Positions 11,797-36,588 of a stretch of 41,029 nucleotides of DNA are shown piece by piece. This stretch comes from a virus, in the IMG/VR virus record IMGVR_UViG_3300022542_000239, positions 1-41,029 of that record; one strand, given 5' to 3'. The position numbers and the translations under genes are program-made. The notes below the pieces were generated by a model that searched no databases, was not told where the DNA came from, and was given only the letters and a program-made list of their open reading frames with translations. How positions within the stretch are numbered: the first letter of the stretch is position 1; each line of letters starts with the position of its first letter.

Positions 11797-11988
11797 ATGC
11801 CATATAGTTTGGATTTACTTAAAGAGATAGGCATGACTCAGAAAGACTTTGCCCTCTGGCTTGGCTTGAACCCAACAACCATTTCTAATTGGGATGAATG
11901 GCCTCGGTACGCTATTATTATTTTAGAGCAGAAGGCTGAGTTGAAAGACTACGAAATATTGAAGGGCGCTATTGGGAGGATGAGATGA
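11797..11988 (+). CDS. Small helix-turn-helix protein (63 aa)
   Basis: Residues 11-32 (IGMTQKDFALWLGL and NPTTISNWDEWP) form a clear HTH of the Cro/YdaS-like kind, with the recognition helix around TTISNW. The size fits a dimeric Cro-type repressor. It is the first gene after its own promoter and overlaps the glycosyltransferase gene by ATGA. It could autoregulate this cassette or bind the early operators; neither can be shown from sequence. Confidence 0.65.
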   Translation: MPYSLDLLKEIGMTQKDFALWLGLNPTTISNWDEWPRYAIIILEQKAELKDYEILKGAIGRMR

Positions 11989-12938
11989 ATATTGAGTCTG
12001 CAATGAGAACTCTAATTCTCCAGGGGACGCAGGACTCAAACCTCAAAAAAAACTTTTTGCTGCGCAAGTTAACAAAAGACACTAAAAACCCTAAGTGGGA
12101 AAATAGCATGAGAACCACCTTAGACGATGAGTGGATGCTTCGTCTTTGTATGGCTAACCTAATCAATGGTAATTATGATTGGGAGGGATGGGGGCTACGA
12201 GAACCCCGTGATAGTCTTATTCCTGATTTGGCTCCGTGGTGGGATGGAAAGGAAGTAGAGAATCTTTTAATTTTAGGAGAGCAGGGACTTGGTGACGAAA
12301 TACTATTTGCTTCAATGTTTGCCGAAATACAGGCTACTAACATTACAGTTGAATGTGATGCTAGGCTCGTCAATATCTTTGCGCGTAATTTCCCGAAAAT
12401 AGAGTTCATTGGGCGAAAGCATTACAACGAAGGCTTTTGGGGTACAGACGACTCATGGGCAGATGGACGGTCATGGGATGCTCAAATATTAATGGGAGAC
12501 TTACCAACATGGTACAGACGTTCAAAAACAGACTTTCCGAACACTTCATATCTTACGGCGGATATAGATTCAAGGTATCAAGGCATGACGGGAATATCAT
12601 GGGTGGGGCGACAGGGGGCGGTAGACATAGACGAACCCAACGGGTTATCCCTTCAATACGGGGTAGACGACCACAATGGGTTGAAAGTACCGTCCATTGA
12701 CCTTAAAAGTGATATTGATGGTTTATTCTCTATTGTTGCCGGACTTAAAAAGGTTATCTCTGTGCCGACCACCATTGTGCATATTGCGGGTGCTTTGGGT
12801 ATTCCAACCGAAGTATGGCTGCCTAAACGGGGAATGGAGCATGGCGGGTTTGATAAAGTGAATAATGCGCTGAATTGGCGGTTTGAACAGAAACTATGCC
12901 GCTGGCACTCGAGCGTTAAAATAATGGGGGTAAAATAA
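11985..12938 (+). CDS. GT-B-like glycosyltransferase (GT9 / TPR-associated type)
   Basis: The 317-aa protein has GEQGLGDEILFASM at residues 98-111, the characteristic N-terminal glycine loop of ADP-heptose/GT9-like transferases and of TPR-linked glycosyltransferases. It also has a C-terminal domain ending in VPTTIVHIAGALGIPTEVWL, a typical donor-site helix-strand. The N-terminal ~90 residues are unassigned. It would transfer a sugar to an unknown acceptor: virion protein, host surface glycan or DNA. It is followed by FkbM and GT-A genes, forming a modification cassette. Confidence 0.7.
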   Translation: MNIESAMRTLILQGTQDSNLKKNFLLRKLTKDTKNPKWENSMRTTLDDEWMLRLCMANLINGNYDWEGWGLREPRDSLIPDLAPWWDGKEVENLLILGEQGLGDEILFASMFAEIQATNITVECDARLVNIFARNFPKIEFIGRKHYNEGFWGTDDSWADGRSWDAQILMGDLPTWYRRSKTDFPNTSYLTADIDSRYQGMTGISWVGRQGAVDIDEPNGLSLQYGVDDHNGLKVPSIDLKSDIDGLFSIVAGLKKVISVPTTIVHIAGALGIPTEVWLPKRGMEHGGFDKVNNALNWRFEQKLCRWHSSVKIMGVK

Positions 12939-13114
12939 TGAAAACATTTAAAGACCTACAGAAAGAAAGCAAATACAAGCTAAAAGATGTGTCTAATTTA
13001 TATCCTGACTACGGTATGCCTATTGGGGTAAATGAAACGGTAATGATTGTTGCTTATTTTAGAGGTGATTTAATCATGTACACAGACAGTCAAAATCCAG
13101 ACTTTAGGAGTTAA
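12938..13114 (+). CDS. Hypothetical protein (58 aa)
   Basis: It is coupled to the glycosyltransferase by TAATG. The product MKTFKDLQKESKYKLKDVSN... has a basic N-terminus and a small beta region; no family is recognised. It lies inside the glycan cassette. Confidence 0.55.
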   Translation: MKTFKDLQKESKYKLKDVSNLYPDYGMPIGVNETVMIVAYFRGDLIMYTDSQNPDFRS

Positions 13115-13115
13115 G

Positions 13116-13730
13116 ATGCAGATAAGGAATGGCTGGTATTGGCCTGATGATGATATTCACAGTTATGATGCAATATTCAAAGAATTATTTAAAGTCGAAT
13201 TAATGGACAAGTACGTTAAAGAGAAAAACGTAGTCATTCAAGCAGGAGGTAATTGTGGAGTATTCGCTAAAGAATTTGCTAAAACGTGGGGGGCTGTATA
13301 TACCTTTGAGCCGAATCCTGAAAACTTTAACTGTTTGGTTGGGAATTGTCCTGATTCCAATATTATTAAGTTTCAAGCTGCTTTGGGGGCTAATCACGAA
13401 ATGGTGGAAGTAGGACAGTCTGCAGACCACCTTCCCAATAATTGCGGGGCATATCAAGTTATCGGCGGAGGAATAACCCCTACCATGATGATTGATGACC
13501 TTGAATTAAAAAAGTGCGATTTAATCTTCCTTGATATTGAAGGGTATGAATTATTCGCATTACAAGGTGGTCGTAAGACGATTAAAGAGTTTCATCCGGT
13601 TATTGTGATCGAGAATAAGCAAGTCCCTCTGACCTACGATATTGAGCCAAAACAAGTGACAGATTACCTGATTGCCGAATTTGGGTATAAAATCGAAGAG
13701 CGCGTACAAAGAGATGTGATATTAATATGA
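13116..13730 (+). CDS. FkbM-family SAM-dependent methyltransferase
   Basis: AGGAG precedes ATG 13116. The AdoMet site VVIQAGGNCGVFAKEFAK (about residues 39-56), the VYTFEPNPENF strand (about 61-71) and the later DLIFLDIEGYELFALQGG and PVIVIE are the FkbM order. These enzymes O-methylate sugars or small molecules. At 204 aa it is a compact single-domain form. Sitting between two glycosyltransferase genes, it probably methylates the transferred sugar. Confidence 0.85.
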   Translation: MQIRNGWYWPDDDIHSYDAIFKELFKVELMDKYVKEKNVVIQAGGNCGVFAKEFAKTWGAVYTFEPNPENFNCLVGNCPDSNIIKFQAALGANHEMVEVGQSADHLPNNCGAYQVIGGGITPTMMIDDLELKKCDLIFLDIEGYELFALQGGRKTIKEFHPVIVIENKQVPLTYDIEPKQVTDYLIAEFGYKIEERVQRDVILI

Positions 13731-13912
13731 TGGGAAATAATTTGAGAGAAAACTGGTATATGGGAGACAAGCAGAGAGGCTTGTCTGATTTAGGTGATTT
13801 ACGTTCTGCGATTGAAGGGTTTTCTGACGGTTACAAAATAAAAACGCCTGACGGGAAAAGCGTATCGCTAAGGATGTCGGAAGGCGTGATTATTATAGAG
13901 GCTTCCGAGTGA
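13727..13912 (+). CDS. Hypothetical protein (61 aa)
   Basis: Overlapping starts with both neighbours (ATGATG, GTGA) place it firmly in the cassette. The product has a Gly/Asp-rich middle and a beta C-terminus (KSVSLRMSEGVIIIEASE). It is not recognised. Confidence 0.5.
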   Translation: MMGNNLRENWYMGDKQRGLSDLGDLRSAIEGFSDGYKIKTPDGKSVSLRMSEGVIIIEASE

Positions 13913-14502
13913 AAGTCGTATGCGTCCACTACGGTCGGAAGTACAAAACCGAGTATGTGAATATTTTACATAATATGGTTAAACGATACTCTGATGCTGA
14001 TTTTTTGTGTATCTCAGACCATTGGGACGGAAAGAATTGTGAAGTGGTGATGGGTGAAAAAGATTTTGATGGGTGGTGGAATAAGATCCAACTATTTAAT
14101 CCAGACTTCTTACCTGGCGAGCGATTCCTCTACCTTGACCTTGATGTGGTGATAACAGAAGATATTTCGTCTATTCTTGAGAGGACGGAGAAATTCGTCA
14201 CGATTAAGGACTGGATTTACAATACCTACAATTCGTCCGCAATGTTAATGACAGGGGGAGAACACGGCCATGTTTACGACTTATTCTGCAAAGATAAGGA
14301 AAAGGCAATGGCATCATGCCCTCAAGGCGATCAACAATGGATTACGAACTATGTCGCAGCCGATTTATTTCAAGATGGGGATTTTGCATCGTTTAGAATG
14401 TCTGCCTGCGAATCAGAGTCAAAAGGTAAAATAGTGGTCTTTCATGGCAAGCCTGACCCGCATGAAGTAAAAGGCACATGGGTAGAGGAGAAATGGGTAT
14501 GA
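13909..14502 (+). CDS. GT-A-type glycosyltransferase (197 aa)
   Basis: GTG 13909 gives MKVVCVHYGRKYKTEYVNIL, a Rossmann-like opening. WWNKIQLFNP is followed by RFLYLDLDVVIT, with the DxD metal motif at residues 77-79, typical of GT-A / GT8-like nucleotide-sugar transferases. A QGDQQWI segment and a final VFHGKPDPHEV fit the acceptor side. It completes the cassette with the GT-B enzyme and the FkbM methyltransferase. Confidence 0.75.
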   Translation: MKVVCVHYGRKYKTEYVNILHNMVKRYSDADFLCISDHWDGKNCEVVMGEKDFDGWWNKIQLFNPDFLPGERFLYLDLDVVITEDISSILERTEKFVTIKDWIYNTYNSSAMLMTGGEHGHVYDLFCKDKEKAMASCPQGDQQWITNYVAADLFQDGDFASFRMSACESESKGKIVVFHGKPDPHEVKGTWVEEKWV

Positions 14503-16120: not shown

Positions 16121-18283
16121 ATGGCTGTAAAAAAGAGAAAAATAACCCTTCAAGGTAAAGATGGCGAGAGTATTGCTGCCTTTATCAAAAAAACACTAGA
16201 AACTCGCCGTGGTAATAAATACCGTAAAGTAGCGGAGAGAATGTGGAAAGAGGTTGACCGTCAAGTATCGATGGAATCAATGTCTCGTCAGAAGAAGAAT
16301 CCCCAGTCTAGGACGAATGATTGGCGCTCTGCCATTGAATTAGGCGAATTATCAAGGGCATCCGAGGTCTTGAGTGCCGATATACGCAGAATGGCTTTTC
16401 CTCAGAATAGAGCATGGTTCGACCCCCATATCAAAGTAAGTCCAGAAGAAATCCAAAAAGCTCAAGTAACACCAGAAGAATACCAAGAAATAGCCGATGG
16501 TGCATTAAGAGCATTGATGGCTCAACAACATCTTGATTTTGGCCTCAAACAACGTACTGACCTCTCAATTAAAGAAGCGCTCCATCATGGCGGTTATGTT
16601 TCTACTGTTGAAGATATTTCAATGTTAGGTAGCACACCGGACGGCACAGTAAAAGATATTAACGCGCCTGTATGGGTTCCTCATTCAATGTGGAACTGCT
16701 ATCCAGATGATGCCCCATCAGTAATGGCGGGTACATTATTCTATACAGGCTCTATGATTATCTGCTCTTACATGAGTCATAACGCTATTGGTAACATGAA
16801 AGGCGATGGTTGGATAATAAATACGATAAGCGATTTAGAAGATCCAAAAGACAAAGACCACGAAATAACATGGTTTTACGGTGATGTAACGATTCCGCGC
16901 ACAAAAGGAAGCGATATTTACTTACCTAACGTCCGGTGCGGGGCGATTAAGGATAAGTTAATTTACTACAAACCCAACGACCTACCTCACTCAAGAGTCA
17001 TTTATAACGGCTACGAAAGACTTGATGTGAGAAACCCTTACTTCATTTCTCCGTTAATGAAAATGTCTCCTACTCAGAAAATAGCATCAGTATTAGCTAA
17101 TAAACTAATTGATGGCGTTGAATTACATCAAGAGCCTCCTGTTGTTTATGATGGTAACGATCCAGATTTGGTGCAAAATGGTGGGATACCAATGATTCCT
17201 GGCTCTCAAACGCCGTCTAAAAACATGGCAAACTTCAAAGTTGTTGAGGTTGGCGACCCCGGCATTACTTTGACTGCCTTACAATTTGAGGTGTCAGAAT
17301 TACAAAAAGGTACTTCTGTTGATTCTATTCGCTCAGGTATGTCATCTAGCACCGAACAAACAGCCACAGAGGTTGAGAGAACTCGTCAGGGCGGTCAGAT
17401 CCGTACAGTGGACTTCTTAGATAAACATGAATTACAAGGGCTTAGACCTTTCCTTTATCTGCAGCATGAATCAAATAAGATTAATTTAAAGTCGTATCAA
17501 TTTTATTCTCAGGAAATGAACTCCCCTGATTTTGTTGTCCTTACAAAAAAAGACCTTCCAAACACAGTGCATTTTGATGTTGTTGGCTCAAAAGGACTTT
17601 TAGAAGAATCTCAGCGTCAACAAGCCACAATGCAAGTAACTCAGTTTCTTTTCTCTATTGGAGCGGGTAGTCAGATTAATGTACCTAAACTTTCTAAAGA
17701 AATGTATCAAGATGCAGGTAATAAGAATCCAGAAAGATTCCTAAATATTCCCGGCAAAGAAGATGCACAGCAAATGCTACAGCAAATGCAAGAGCAGATG
17801 AAACAGATCCAAGAGCAAGCCCAAGCGTTACAAGCTGAGAATCAAGAGTTGAAGCAAGGTGAAGAATCTAAAATTCAAGAAATCCAAGCCAAAGCAGCCA
17901 TTGAAATGGCGAAGCAAGATAACCAAGAAGATCAAATCGCCGCTAAAGCAGAAGTCGATATGGCGAAAGTTAGCCGTGAAGCTGACTTAAAAGATCAAGA
18001 TGCAGTCAATAAATTCAATCTTGAAGAGCAGAAAAACGAAAACAATAAACAACTTGAGATGTTTAAAGCCTTTATTGCAGAAGAAACAAAACCAGAAGAT
18101 ACGACCGAAGCAGATAATGAACAACGAGAAGAGTCTGAATCCGTAAAAATGACAGCCATGATGGAGAAATTTGAAGCTATGGTTGAGCAATTTGCAAAAG
18201 TCGCAGCAGCTCCTAAGAAAATCATACGGGACAAAGAAGGCTTTATAACAGAAGTTCAACCAACAACAAGGCTTGATAGCTAA
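16121..18283 (+). CDS. Portal protein (P22-like, 720 aa)
   Basis: Position directly after terL and size match P22-type podovirus portals. Conserved-looking blocks include SRTNDWRSAIELGELSRASEV near the N-terminus and TEQTATEVERTRQGGQI at about 408-424 in the central stem region. The C-terminal ~150 residues form a long Gln/Glu-rich coiled coil (QMLQQMQEQMKQIQEQ onward), reminiscent of the helical barrel of P22 portal. It forms the dodecameric DNA channel at the unique capsid vertex. Confidence 0.85.
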   Translation: MAVKKRKITLQGKDGESIAAFIKKTLETRRGNKYRKVAERMWKEVDRQVSMESMSRQKKNPQSRTNDWRSAIELGELSRASEVLSADIRRMAFPQNRAWFDPHIKVSPEEIQKAQVTPEEYQEIADGALRALMAQQHLDFGLKQRTDLSIKEALHHGGYVSTVEDISMLGSTPDGTVKDINAPVWVPHSMWNCYPDDAPSVMAGTLFYTGSMIICSYMSHNAIGNMKGDGWIINTISDLEDPKDKDHEITWFYGDVTIPRTKGSDIYLPNVRCGAIKDKLIYYKPNDLPHSRVIYNGYERLDVRNPYFISPLMKMSPTQKIASVLANKLIDGVELHQEPPVVYDGNDPDLVQNGGIPMIPGSQTPSKNMANFKVVEVGDPGITLTALQFEVSELQKGTSVDSIRSGMSSSTEQTATEVERTRQGGQIRTVDFLDKHELQGLRPFLYLQHESNKINLKSYQFYSQEMNSPDFVVLTKKDLPNTVHFDVVGSKGLLEESQRQQATMQVTQFLFSIGAGSQINVPKLSKEMYQDAGNKNPERFLNIPGKEDAQQMLQQMQEQMKQIQEQAQALQAENQELKQGEESKIQEIQAKAAIEMAKQDNQEDQIAAKAEVDMAKVSREADLKDQDAVNKFNLEEQKNENNKQLEMFKAFIAEETKPEDTTEADNEQREESESVKMTAMMEKFEAMVEQFAKVAAAPKKIIRDKEGFITEVQPTTRLDS

Positions 18284-32027: not shown

Positions 32028-33290
32028 ATGGAGTTTGTATCATTAGGCTGGCAAAACCAAATGGGCATAGGTGGCGCAGGCTTCTTGCCGTCTGATCTAG
32101 CTAATCTTGAATTGTGGACTAAATTCAATTCTGGAATAACCGTAACCGGCGCAGGCGTAAGTCAATGGGATGATGTTTCAGGTAATGGAAATCATTTAAA
32201 GCAAGGGGCTGATACCAATATGCCGTCTGAGGAAGTGGATGGCTCTATATTATTTGATGGTGTTGATAACTTCTTAAAAGCCGATGCGTTTACGTTAGTC
32301 CAGCCTGAGACTGTTTACATTTTATTAAAACAAATGTCATGGGCGTCCCTAGATTACATCTATGATGGCAATAGCGCGGCCTCAATGACTTTGATTCAGC
32401 ACACGTCCACACCAAAAATAGCGGCTTATGCGGGTTTATTTTCCAGTGATTCTGGTGATTTAGCTTTAGGGTCACATGGCTCTGTTGTAGCCGTGTTCAA
32501 CGGCGCGTCCTCAGTATTGCAAATAGACAATAACACACCGATAACCGGAGACTTTGGCTCTAATGATGGGGGAGGGTTTACCCTCGGCTGTAACGGCAAT
32601 ACCACGGTTAATTATTCAAACTTACTAGTTCAGGAAGTGATTGTATATTCAGCAGCCCATGACGCCGCAACTAGGGCACAAGTTATTGCATATCTAGGCG
32701 GGGTATTAACGGCTAATTGGCAAACAGGTTTTGGCACTGGAGATTCTTTTGCTGATGATGTAACTGATTGGCCTGCAAAATTAAATGAGACAAGCCCGTA
32801 TATCGACAAAATTACAAGCGTTGGTTATCCTGGCGATCAGCTAACAGGCGTTATTGGAAGCAGCTTTGATGGTAATTTAGATGTTATAGCAGATGGTGGT
32901 TTTGCTGTAGTTCAAGGTGGTGTAAATGATATAAGGTCTGAGCTTCATACGCCACAAGAAATATTGGATGCCGTTATTGCGATGCGCGTTCAAGCTATAG
33001 CGCACAAAAAGAATTTCGCATTAATAAATATCGCCCCTTTCGGGAATTGGGTTGGGAGCCAACCGTGGTCAGCCTCTATGCAAACTGATTTAGAAGCATA
33101 CAACGCGCTTGCTTTGGCTTGGACTACAGCTAACAACATCCCTTATGCTGATATTTACACCGCTTTAGGGGATGTTACAAATACTGATGAATTAGCCGCT
33201 GCGTATGATAGCGGTGACGGGTTACACCCTAACGCAACTGGATCACAGGAGATAGCAGATGTACTAATAACTGCTATTGATGCCGTATGA
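32028..33290 (+). CDS. Tail fibre with LamG-like and SGNH esterase domains (420 aa)
   Basis: Residues about 22-225 are a concanavalin/LamG-like domain (DLANLELWTKFNSGITV, VSQWDDVSGNGNHLKQ, IVYSAAHDAATRAQVIAYL). Residues about 228-420 are an SGNH/GDSL hydrolase: GDS at 238-240 (Ser240), GGVND at 297-301 (Asn300) and DGLHPN at 397-402 (Asp397, His400). It likely binds a host surface glycan and removes O-acetyl groups during adsorption. It is the last tail gene before lysis. Confidence 0.85.
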   Translation: MEFVSLGWQNQMGIGGAGFLPSDLANLELWTKFNSGITVTGAGVSQWDDVSGNGNHLKQGADTNMPSEEVDGSILFDGVDNFLKADAFTLVQPETVYILLKQMSWASLDYIYDGNSAASMTLIQHTSTPKIAAYAGLFSSDSGDLALGSHGSVVAVFNGASSVLQIDNNTPITGDFGSNDGGGFTLGCNGNTTVNYSNLLVQEVIVYSAAHDAATRAQVIAYLGGVLTANWQTGFGTGDSFADDVTDWPAKLNETSPYIDKITSVGYPGDQLTGVIGSSFDGNLDVIADGGFAVVQGGVNDIRSELHTPQEILDAVIAMRVQAIAHKKNFALINIAPFGNWVGSQPWSASMQTDLEAYNALALAWTTANNIPYADIYTALGDVTNTDELAAAYDSGDGLHPNATGSQEIADVLITAIDAV

Positions 33291-33336: not shown

Positions 33337-33660
33337 ATGATATTACTTTATTCAACAGGATTATTTTACATCACTCTTACCTTATATCTGGCAATTATGC
33401 ACGTTGCTAAATATAAGGATTCTCTAACATTAGACCAAAAGATTATGTTTGCTCCCATATTAGTCGTAGGGATATTATGTGATGTTTTATTCCGCTATAC
33501 ATTAGGGCTTATCTTGGAATTACCTCATTTCAATAAAGATGACTTATTGTTTACCAGCGTATTGCAAAGGCACGTTAATGCGGATACATGGAAAGGGTCT
33601 ATTGCCAGATTCATGTGTAAAACACTGGATAAATTCGATCCAAAAGGGAAGCATTGCTGA
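33337..33660 (+). CDS. Membrane protein before the endolysin (107 aa)
   Basis: AGGAGG lies upstream. Residues 1-25 and about 38-62 are TM segments; the C-terminal half is soluble and ends TLDKFDPKGKHC, with a short Asp-Pro-rich tail seen in other phage proteins from this region. Two TM segments next to an endolysin fit a holin, but the large soluble tail is unusual for one. Holin is one option only. Confidence 0.5.
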   Translation: MILLYSTGLFYITLTLYLAIMHVAKYKDSLTLDQKIMFAPILVVGILCDVLFRYTLGLILELPHFNKDDLLFTSVLQRHVNADTWKGSIARFMCKTLDKFDPKGKHC

Positions 33661-34103
33661 TGAACATGCCCCCCAATTTCTCCATAAGCGAGCTAACCTT
33701 CTCACAAACAGCAGCCCGTAACAGTATTGATAACACGCCAGATGACGAGGCTCTTATTAATTTGACTCAATTAGCCTGGACGCTACAGGAAATAAGAGAT
33801 GGGATTAAATCTCCTATTATTGTGTCCTCTGGATACCGCAGCCCTTACCTGAATAACGCTATTGGTGGTTCTCAGACCTCAGCACACATGAAAGGTATGG
33901 CTGCTGACATCTCTACCCCTTCCATGACCCCGCTCGAATTATCCCAATGGATAGCTGAGAACATTCCAGGCTTTGACCAGTGTATCCACGAATTTGGTAG
34001 ATGGGTTCATTTAGGAATGGCTCAAGCACCACGTGGCCAATTACTCACCGCTTTAAGAGAAAACGGTAAAACAATTTACGTTAACGGGCTAATTGAGGTT
34101 TAA
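33660..34103 (+). CDS. Peptidase M15-type endolysin (147 aa)
   Basis: ATG 33660 overlaps the previous stop; a TTG two codons upstream is less likely. The protein has SSGYRSPYLNNAIGGSQTSAH at residues 57-76 region, then KGMAADI and EFGRWVHLG. His76, Asp83 and His117 match the M15 zinc ligands, with Glu111 a likely general base. M15 enzymes cut peptide cross-links in peptidoglycan. No signal peptide is seen, so export would depend on a holin. Confidence 0.88.
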   Translation: MNMPPNFSISELTFSQTAARNSIDNTPDDEALINLTQLAWTLQEIRDGIKSPIIVSSGYRSPYLNNAIGGSQTSAHMKGMAADISTPSMTPLELSQWIAENIPGFDQCIHEFGRWVHLGMAQAPRGQLLTALRENGKTIYVNGLIEV

Positions 34104-34104
34104 A

Positions 34105-34401
34105 ATGCAAGAAACATGGCATACAGATAAAAAAATAATAATCGGGTTAATAACCGCTGTATTAATTACAATGTTCACCTCATTGGGGCAATGGTTTTAT
34201 GTCATTAAAACATTAGATACCGACCCTCCATTAATTAACCGTATTATTGCTTTGGAATACCAGGTATCAGAACAGGGCAGAGTTAATCAAGCTATACTTG
34301 ACGAATTACGACTTGCTAGAGTGCAAAGGGCTAAATTCATAGGAGAGCAAAAACGCCGCACGCCTATGGTTGATTGGATTGAAAGGAGAATGGGAAAATG
34401 A
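34105..34401 (+). CDS. Single-TM protein with cytoplasmic/periplasmic helix (98 aa)
   Basis: The start is ATG 34105 just after the endolysin stop. One TM helix (about residues 13-32, IIIGLITAVLITMFTSLGQW) is followed by a charged helix (INRIIALEYQVSEQGRVNQA ...). The topology suits a holin-like, anti-holin or envelope-fusion protein. It overlaps the next start by ATGA in the lysis cluster. Confidence 0.6.
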   Translation: MQETWHTDKKIIIGLITAVLITMFTSLGQWFYVIKTLDTDPPLINRIIALEYQVSEQGRVNQAILDELRLARVQRAKFIGEQKRRTPMVDWIERRMGK

Positions 34402-34733
34402 AATTGTTAGGGCTATGGTTTATTATAATGCTATTGATGGCACTGTCTAATATGGCAAACGCTGATGACCCTCATGGGGCTGTTATTCAAGAAGGCTCTC
34501 CATCGATTACTTATAGCAACTCGCAAGCAATGGCGCTCGCAGTATCAGAAATCAACCCCACCCTCTTATCAAGCAAATATCAGATAGGAATTGGCTTTGG
34601 TGCTCACAATGATGAGACAGCCATAGCAGTAGGACTTGCAAAGCGCATAAACAAAAACCTACTATTCAGCGGCAAGATCGCCAATCAAAGCGGAAGCGTT
34701 GGAACAAGTGTAGGTCTCAACTTTAAGTTTTAG
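34398..34733 (+). CDS. Secreted YadA-like membrane-anchor protein (111 aa)
   Basis: Residues 1-22 are a Sec signal peptide with an ANA cleavage site and no lipobox Cys. Residues about 41-111 follow the trimeric-autotransporter anchor pattern (YadA C-terminal domain): a helix SNSQAMALAVSEIN, then alternating strands YQIGIGFGAHNDETAIAVG, RINKNLLFSGKI, SVGTSVGLNFKF, with the outer-membrane C-terminal Phe. As a stand-alone anchor it may form a trimeric 12-strand barrel in the outer membrane. A role in lysis or in blocking superinfection is inferred. Confidence 0.7.
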   Translation: MKLLGLWFIIMLLMALSNMANADDPHGAVIQEGSPSITYSNSQAMALAVSEINPTLLSSKYQIGIGFGAHNDETAIAVGLAKRINKNLLFSGKIANQSGSVGTSVGLNFKF

Positions 34734-35247
34734 GCTGCCCGTGATTTTCGTGGAAGCCATACTTGTTATTAGCCGACATGCGCGCACATATCGCTTCAAA
34801 CTTATCTGGGTGCCTGCCTAGACCTACGTTCTTTCCATGAGCCTGTATTTGCGAGACCCACTTTCCCCTTTCCTCACTCCAGCTAACGCCAGTAACTCCA
34901 GACTTATTATTTTTTGCTTTTGTTAGATTGACGCTATTCCCGTGAAAACTTGTATTTCTTAAGTTACAAAGCCTATTATCATCACGAATATGATTGGCGT
35001 GATCTATCTGATTAGGCCATTTTTTGTGAACGATAAACCAAGCTAAACGATGGGCTTTATATGGCTTATAATCAACACAGATTATCCTATAGCCGTGAGG
35101 AGTAATATTGCCAGCAATGGAGCCTTTTACCGCGGTGCCGCCTCTACTAGCTCTCCAAGTGAGATCACCTGTGATTGGGTTGTAATTTATAATAGATATT
35201 AGTTTTTTGTGCGAAACGCAGTTTGATGTTTTTCTAATGTCGACCAT
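34723..35247 (-). CDS. HNH homing endonuclease with AP2 domain (174 aa)
   Basis: I start at ATG 35247 (after CGGAGAA); the frame is open to 35286. The HNH core is HRLAWFIVHKKWP, IDHANHIRDDNRLCNLR (about 66-97), and the C-terminal AP2-type DNA-binding domain spans about 115-165 (SGVTGVSWSEERGKWVSQIQ). It is antisense to the lysis genes and overlaps the YadA-like gene by 11 bases, as expected of an inserted free-standing homing endonuclease. Confidence 0.85.
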   Translation of the reverse strand: MVDIRKTSNCVSHKKLISIINYNPITGDLTWRASRGGTAVKGSIAGNITPHGYRIICVDYKPYKAHRLAWFIVHKKWPNQIDHANHIRDDNRLCNLRNTSFHGNSVNLTKAKNNKSGVTGVSWSEERGKWVSQIQAHGKNVGLGRHPDKFEAICARMSANNKYGFHENHGQPKT

Positions 35248-35874: not shown

Positions 35875-35993
35875 TGCAGAAACTTAAAGAGCTTTATAAT
35901 AACCTTAGCATTGAAAACAAAGGCCGATTACAAGGATTTGGCGGGGGGATAGTGTTTTATATCGCGTTTAACGTCATAGCATATTTCTTATGA
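35874..35993 (+). CDS. Small membrane protein (39 aa)
   Basis: It is coupled to both neighbours (TAATG and ATGA). A polar helix is followed by one TM segment (GGGIVFYIAFNVIAYFL). Possibly an anti-holin or holin partner. Confidence 0.45.
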   Translation: MQKLKELYNNLSIENKGRLQGFGGGIVFYIAFNVIAYFL

Positions 35994-36163
35994 TTGATAA
36001 ACTAATAGAATCGACCACCTTAAAGCTGGTTGTGGCTGCTTTCATTGCACTCCATACGATGCTGTGGTTTGGCAAATTAGGCGGCGGAATGGCTGAGTAT
36101 GGCGTTGCTATCACTGGTATTCTGTATATGTGGCGTGACAGAGAGAAAAACAAAGATGTATAA
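35990..36163 (+). CDS. Holin-like protein, two TM segments (57 aa)
   Basis: Two hydrophobic segments (about 11-27 and 32-48, separated by a Gly-rich turn LGGGMAEYG) and a charged tail (MWRDREKNKDV) fit a small class II holin. The gene directly overlaps the Rz-like spanin start, the usual neighbour. The M15 endolysin is 2 kb upstream because of the homing-endonuclease insertion and extra genes. Confidence 0.6.
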   Translation: MIDKLIESTTLKLVVAAFIALHTMLWFGKLGGGMAEYGVAITGILYMWRDREKNKDV

Positions 36164-36452
36164 GCTATTAGCCGGTGCTGTTGGTATCGCCTTATTGGTG
36201 ACAGGGGTGGGATGGTTTTCATATAAAGCCGGTATAAACTCTGAAATAGCCTCCGGTGTCAAAATCATAGCTAAATATCAAGAGAAAGAGCGCCAGGTTA
36301 TCAAGGAATTAGAGAAAACAAAGAAAGCCCTAGAGGTAAAGACCCGTGAGAAACTTAAAACCATTAGAGAAGTTGCTGATCCTACCGGCTGCATTGATAT
36401 TGACGCTCCAGATTCAGTCTTGCAGCAACTCACAACGAGTAGTACGCCCTAG
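36156..36452 (+). CDS. Rz: Rz-like inner-membrane spanin subunit
   Basis: ATG 36156 gives an N-terminal TM anchor (YKLLAGAVGIALLVTGVGWF) and a long periplasmic coiled coil (KYQEKERQVIKELEKTKKAL), ending ADPTGCIDIDAPDSVLQQL, a typical Rz tail. Length 98 aa. The o-spanin gene is embedded out of frame in its 3' part. Together they fuse inner and outer membranes in the last step of lysis. Confidence 0.8.
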   Translation: MYKLLAGAVGIALLVTGVGWFSYKAGINSEIASGVKIIAKYQEKERQVIKELEKTKKALEVKTREKLKTIREVADPTGCIDIDAPDSVLQQLTTSSTP

Positions 36453-36588
36453 CAGCTACTTAACGGTAGATTGTAAGCAACCTGTGCTAGAGGGTAAAAA
36501 GTGGCGTGACATAGCTTCTCACGCGGTTAGATTAGAAGAATCTGTTGCTGAGTGTACCGGCAGGATGAAAGAGATTAGAGGGGATTAG
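36346..36588 (+). CDS. Rz1: Rz1-like outer-membrane spanin lipoprotein
   Basis: GTG 36346 starts in another frame inside Rz. A hydrophobic signal (EKLLILPAALILTLQIQSC) ends in a lipobox-like IQSC, so Cys26 would be lipidated. The mature part has VDCKQPVLEGKKWRDIASH and ECTGRMKEIRGD, the Cys-rich pattern of o-spanins. The 107-base overlap with Rz is the classic embedded arrangement. Confidence 0.75.
   Translation: MRNLKPLEKLLILPAALILTLQIQSCSNSQRVVRPSSYLTVDCKQPVLEGKKWRDIASHAVRLEESVAECTGRMKEIRGD

Follow-up and report, generated by a model that had tools for sequence, protein, structure and literature searches.

The window, by which we mean the whole IMG/VR virus record of 41,029 bases analysed here, carries within its lysis module a gene for a 111-aa protein that follows the endolysin gene and overlaps a gene for a small membrane protein (Table 1). 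No exact terminal repeats were present in the window and no integrase was detected in it. The ORF starts with ATG, has a Shine–Dalgarno-like AGGAGA upstream and shares an ATGA overlap with the preceding gene; its product reads MKLLGLWFIIMLLMALSNMANA, continued by DDPHGAVIQEGSPSITYSNSQAMALAVSEINPTLLSSKYQIGIGFGAHNDETAIAVGLAKRINKNLLFSGKIANQSGSVGTSVGLNFKF.

Table 1 Features of the anchor-only gene and of the lysis module around it.
Feature	Position	Strand	Basis or remark
Two-TM protein, holin candidate or other membrane protein	33337..33660	+	sequence only; no family match
M15-type endolysin	33660..34103	+	PF08291 1e-22; phrog_894 lysis
Membrane protein, 98 aa, one N-terminal TM helix and coiled coil	34105..34401	+	overlaps anchor start by ATGA
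Anchor-only YadA-type protein, 111 aa	34398..34733	+	PF03895 profile, AlphaFold2 monomer, structure matches
Putative Sec signal peptide, residues 1–22, cleavage after ANA	34398..34463	+	sequence and hydropathy
Short N-terminal segment, residues 23–42, in the passenger's place; disordered in model	34464..34523	+	
PF03895 YadA_anchor match; four predicted strands and terminal Phe111	34572..34730	+	
Gly79, invariant column in alignment of 12 phage anchors	34632..34634	+	
HNH homing endonuclease, convergent, inserted after anchor	34723..35247	-	PF13392, phrog_99
Small membrane protein, holin candidate	35990..36163	+	sequence only
Rz-like inner-membrane spanin subunit	36159..36452	+	weak phrog_1152 E=0.0015 and position
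Rz1-like outer-membrane lipoprotein, overlaps Rz	36346..36588	+	PF23793 LysC 1.2e-9; phrog_456 lysis 1.2e-10

An initial annotation of this DNA had described the ORF as a stand-alone YadA-type outer-membrane anchor, with a Sec signal peptide, a helix, four strands and a terminal Phe but no passenger, and this description held. The PF03895 YadA_anchor profile matched the protein over profile positions 7–60 of 60 with 54.8 bits (E=1e-14), against a curated cut-off of 22.7 bits. The putative signal peptide (K2, hydrophobic residues 3–16, cleavage between ANA and DD) was typical of Sec substrates by eye and by hydropathy, and only some 20 residues (23–42) separated it from the anchor helix, so the stalk or head passenger of a full trimeric autotransporter adhesin (TAA) is missing. 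The protein contains no Cys anywhere and thus lacks the lipobox of a two-component o-spanin. An AlphaFold2 model, a monomer built from a shallow alignment and of low confidence (mean pLDDT 58), placed a helix at residues 43–50 and strands at 61–70, 73–83, 88–97 and 100–109, ending in Phe111. The top Foldseek matches of this model were exactly the five solved TAA anchor entries (Hia, AtaA and YadA), each with probability 1.00, and VIA-align gave these entries Z scores of 8.0–9.2, with the next row at 5.4. In the other direction, a phage-anchor profile that included the window protein matched the Hia and AtaA anchors as well as 2LME, the solved YadA anchor (2e-17). The Pfam match, the 2LME profile match and the structural matches to TAA anchors agree, and the PF03895 assignment is not due to chance: the ORF encodes a putative Sec-type signal peptide and, after a stretch of some 20 residues, a short helix leading into a YadA-type anchor of four strands. 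Its Gly79 fits the conserved glycine of the barrel and presumably corresponds to YadA G389, by our own mapping. The best PHROG match was PHROG 8062 (E=7e-07), covering only the C-terminal 68 profile positions.

The neighbourhood was likewise as first described, with the M15 endolysin and the TM gene directly upstream and an Rz/Rz1-like pair also present, its Rz member weakly matched. This pair lies 1.4 kb downstream of the anchor gene and is not contiguous with it, because the HNH gene on the other strand intervenes. Promoter and terminator scans scored real sequence no better than shuffles. The HNH gene is oriented against the lysis module in which it sits; in a relative (MW202713.1), an endonuclease gene (16200–16703) also lies in the lysis region.

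Scanning contigs with an anchor alignment revealed a second phage with the same arrangement, IMGVR_UViG_3300022697_000118 (L085, also G048). Its gene order is lysozyme (PF00959, 1e-14), a TM/coiled-coil protein of 124 aa, an ATGA junction, an anchor-only protein of 109 aa and an Rz-like pair, the last called by arrangement, with no family matches. The L085 anchor has a signal peptide, matches PF03895 with 25.5 bits and again has PHROG 8062 as its best PHROG match. L085 shows DNA-level relatedness to three podoviruses that have P22-type head or tail proteins: Pseudomonas phage AH02, Vibrio phage 1.275.O and coliphage Skarpretter. All-against-all BLASTP between the window phage and this unrelated P22-type podovirus identified the anchor as the only shared protein (29% identity over 111 aa). 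The endolysins differ, PF00959 standing in place of the M15 family (PF08291); the anchors have short N-terminal tails that show no clear resemblance; and no similarity was detected between the two TM/coiled-coil proteins, whose homology was therefore rejected. Two unrelated podoviruses have thus placed an anchor-only protein at the same spot of the lysis module (n = 2 cases), so this location is more than a one-off.

We found relatives of the window phage with capsid identity of up to 87%, and none of 47 related records contained a PF03895 match. An HMM built from 14 anchor sequences found no anchor in these relatives either and separated cleanly, the best non-anchor scoring E of about 2, which ruled out a diverged, hidden copy; six of the records searched (G027, G031, G032, G037, G044 and G047) were covered over 36–40 kb each and the others were short fragments. 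The TM/coiled-coil gene of G027, the nearest long relative, leads straight into a holin-like gene and Rz/Rz1-like genes, with neither anchor nor HNH gene. Homologues of the window TM/coiled-coil protein occur in the relatives L031 (1003–1296) and L057 (14892–15254), where the anchor is absent, and an obligate partnership was rejected for the relatives, in which the TM/coiled-coil gene persists without an anchor. This TM/coiled-coil family, found in lysis modules, shares the motif WH...I(K/R)T(L/V)DT(D/T)PP; Pfam and NCBIfam gave it no assignment, and its PHROG matches were weak. As the searched relatives of the window phage do without the anchor, it is an accessory gene of this phage and lies outside the constant gene set of the cassette. 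The anchor HMM also found no anchor in AH02, Vibrio phage 1.275.O, Skarpretter or ct7QV12 (AH02 and 1.275.O being covered from 12 kb on only), and the presence of the anchor gene in two unrelated podoviruses and absence from the searched relatives of each fits a mobile accessory gene. Close relatives of the window anchor were not found in viral contigs (by single-protein query), plasmids or genome contigs.

Anchor-only proteins are, in addition, present in about twenty T4-like phages, away from the lysis genes. They include phiR1-RT g139 (122 aa), PEi26 ORF-152 (138 aa), PM2 gp088 (131 aa), a protein of fHe-Yen9-01 (128 aa) and UYM28796.1 of LC53 (125 aa, annotated ‘Yad_anchor domain-containing protein’); further T4-like records matched across most of their length, and the proteins are conserved near full-length. 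Those tested belong to PHROG 8062, labelled ‘unknown function’. Those read (g139, ORF-152, gp088 and the LC53 protein, 122–138 aa) are likewise composed of a signal peptide, a short stretch and a YadA anchor, and those aligned share 19–24% identity with the window protein, which lacks the phage-typical AGIAGVAAM.NIP helix of most T4-like anchors. Whereas the window anchor sits beside endolysin and TM/coiled-coil genes, the T4-like genes lie near tRNA genes, about 8 kb (phiR1-RT) or 2 kb (PM2) from the lysozyme gene, and this type of protein is therefore not intrinsically a lysis gene. In the IMG/VR copy of Yersinia phage TG1, the gene differs from phiR1-RT g139 only by a premature stop at residue 29 (CAA to TAA; L083:6085–6087), which indicates that an otherwise intact gene can be lost or dispensable. 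A weak match in LR745208 was ruled out as an anchor gene by a frame check. An alignment of 12 diverse anchors was too variable to serve for contig scans.

YadA-anchor proteins as a whole are numerous in phage genomes, with 44 to 104 records per search. Among the proteins examined at 15 loci, nearly all start with a signal-peptide-like segment and most bear coiled-coil or collagen-like passengers. Phage-carried trimeric autotransporters (Eib, and the ‘agglutinating adhesin’ of phiEco32, N4-like and jumbo phages) share the anchor fold and the Sec-type signal peptide with the window protein; unlike it, they have coiled-coil, collagen-like or other passengers and are 194–541 aa long (those read). 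Several YadA-anchor proteins (L055:2401–3198, L072:2135–2719, L078:1305–2222 and others) are annotated as tail or tail-fibre proteins, and most of these have a Sec-type signal peptide at the N terminus; many of them therefore probably reside in the outer membrane of the infected cell and are not virion parts.

Other outer-membrane proteins encoded by phages can be compared with the window anchor. Phage phi80 Cor alters the receptor surface of the infected cell, and phage lambda encodes the outer-membrane proteins Lom and Bor in its late region, near tail-fibre and lysis genes; Lom is Ail/OmpX-like and Bor is a lipoprotein, and neither is a trimeric anchor. T5 Llp changes the receptor surface of the infected cell and provides a functional analogy to the window anchor (PMC9586334); it exemplifies how blocking adsorption to infected cells and to post-lysis fragments, an established phage need, is met by small outer-membrane proteins (PMC9586334). 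Llp and Cor are lipoproteins, whereas the window anchor is a predicted β-barrel, and a sequence relation is not expected.

We tentatively propose that the tailed phage to which the window belongs infects Gram-negative bacteria and carries the anchor as an accessory (‘moron’-type) late gene, which may alter the surface of the infected cell and block re-adsorption to infected cells and debris. Judging from its family, the anchor would, late in infection, be exported by Sec and then inserted by BAM into the outer membrane of the host as a trimeric barrel of 12 strands, with residues 23–42 expected to be the part that the trimer exposes. Less surely, the barrel could modify the cell surface, first during infection and then after lysis; the most likely way would be to mask the receptor of the phage itself or to compete with it, which would keep progeny and superinfecting phage from adsorbing to the dying cell or its debris: the same task as that of T5 Llp or phi80/N15 Cor, with a different fold. 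Because anchor-only homologues occur in about twenty T4-like phages outside lysis cassettes, a surface role independent of the lysis genes is suggested, and this reading is compatible with the late position in the lysis module as well as with that in the T4-likes. Three observations speak against surface masking: in both phages the anchor gene overlaps, by ATGA, a TM/coiled-coil gene of the lysis module, which a role in lysis would explain better; the N-terminal tails of the anchors in the two lysis modules show no clear similarity; and the gene looks late, whereas superinfection-exclusion proteins are usually early. If receptor masking were true, a β-barrel class would be added to the superinfection-exclusion proteins.

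We slightly favour blocking of re-adsorption over help with lysis, which we regard as a less probable but serious explanation. Here the barrel, alone or with the overlapping TM/coiled-coil protein, would act during lysis, beside Rz/Rz1, to weaken, cluster or bridge the outer membrane, and an outer-membrane barrel would be added to a step now thought to need spanins. The order of endolysin, TM/coiled-coil gene, ATGA and anchor, shared by two phages that have no other BLASTP protein in common and different endolysins, supports it, as does the resemblance of the anchor and the TM/coiled-coil protein (inner-membrane, with a probable periplasmic coiled coil) to an i-spanin/o-spanin pair in topology. 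However, an Rz/Rz1-like pair is also present in both phages, the relatives L031 and L057 have the TM/coiled-coil gene but no anchor, the TM/coiled-coil proteins of the window and L085 are not detectably homologous, and the T4-like anchor-only proteins lie outside lysis cassettes. Moreover, an engineered TAA barrel without its coiled coil conducted only 0.17 nS (PMC12963341), and removal of the coiled coil of the Hia anchor reportedly prevented proper expression (PMC12963341); a simple pore or large hole is thus unlikely to suffice. A specific form of lysis help, which we consider improbable, is that the TM/coiled-coil protein and the trimeric barrel form a second, non-lipoprotein lysis module from inner to outer membrane, with the barrel as o-spanin subunit or as an outer-membrane primer for rupture. 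Rz/Rz1 spanins are similarly an overlapping gene pair of an inner-membrane coiled-coil and an outer-membrane protein; their outer-membrane partner is a lipoprotein, whereas that of the window pair would be a barrel, with a separate Rz/Rz1-like pair at hand.

It is similarly doubtful that the gene is what is left of a longer trimeric adhesin of a phage after loss of the passenger, with little or no function. Long proteins of signal peptide, passenger and anchor are common in phages and the broken TG1 copy indicates dispensability, but the open frame, the good start context, the precise ATGA junction in two unrelated phages and the near full-length conservation of the T4-like proteins argue against decay. 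We give slightly less credence still to a BAM decoy, in which a small, fast-made trimeric barrel would occupy BAM and chaperones and lower outer-membrane integrity or receptor insertion late in infection: TAAs depend on BamA/BamD (PMC7940764), and the window protein is little more than the BAM-recognised part, yet a well-folding anchor should leave BAM. That the protein belongs to the virion or its tail, a common annotation of similar genes, is very improbable, since PHROG labels of tail or adhesin, YadA domains at the ends of some real tail fibres (PMC3909814) and a YadA domain in a virion protein (PMC9146016) are set against an N-terminal signal peptide, the absence of a tail-attachment domain and the place of the gene in a lysis module.

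The anchor family, phage-borne TAAs and anchor-only phage proteins in databases, unnamed or named by domain, are already known. The initial annotation knew of no system of this kind in phage lysis cassettes; this held in that none was found described, but stand-alone anchors do exist in phages, in the T4-likes and as phrog_8062. In the literature, mainly that outside subscription journals, we found neither an anchor-only protein described in a phage lysis module nor a functional study of an anchor-only phage protein. Phage YadA-anchor genes are described in papers only as adhesins, tail proteins or virulence genes, PF03895 being noted in N4-like phages, for instance, as a presumed virulence gene (PMC10654107). 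New here is the second unrelated phage with the same lysis-module order around an anchor-only protein, our strongest new evidence, at two cases only. Phages appear to use the bare TAA translocation anchor as a protein of its own, repeatedly and in unrelated lineages. Anchor-carrying T4-like isolates on Yersinia, Serratia, Edwardsiella and Proteus, together with the natural broken and intact pair of TG1 and phiR1-RT, make the question accessible to bench work.

Two further regions of the window were recorded. Positions 32028–33290 encode a protein of structural appearance whose C-terminal domain is a GDSL lipase/acylhydrolase (PF13472 5e-12), possibly a tail-borne surface esterase. Just ahead of the terminase gene, 11985–14502 contains sugar/glycosyl- and methyltransferase-like genes (by eye), and MW202713.1 has annotated glycosyltransferase and methyltransferase genes at the corresponding position.
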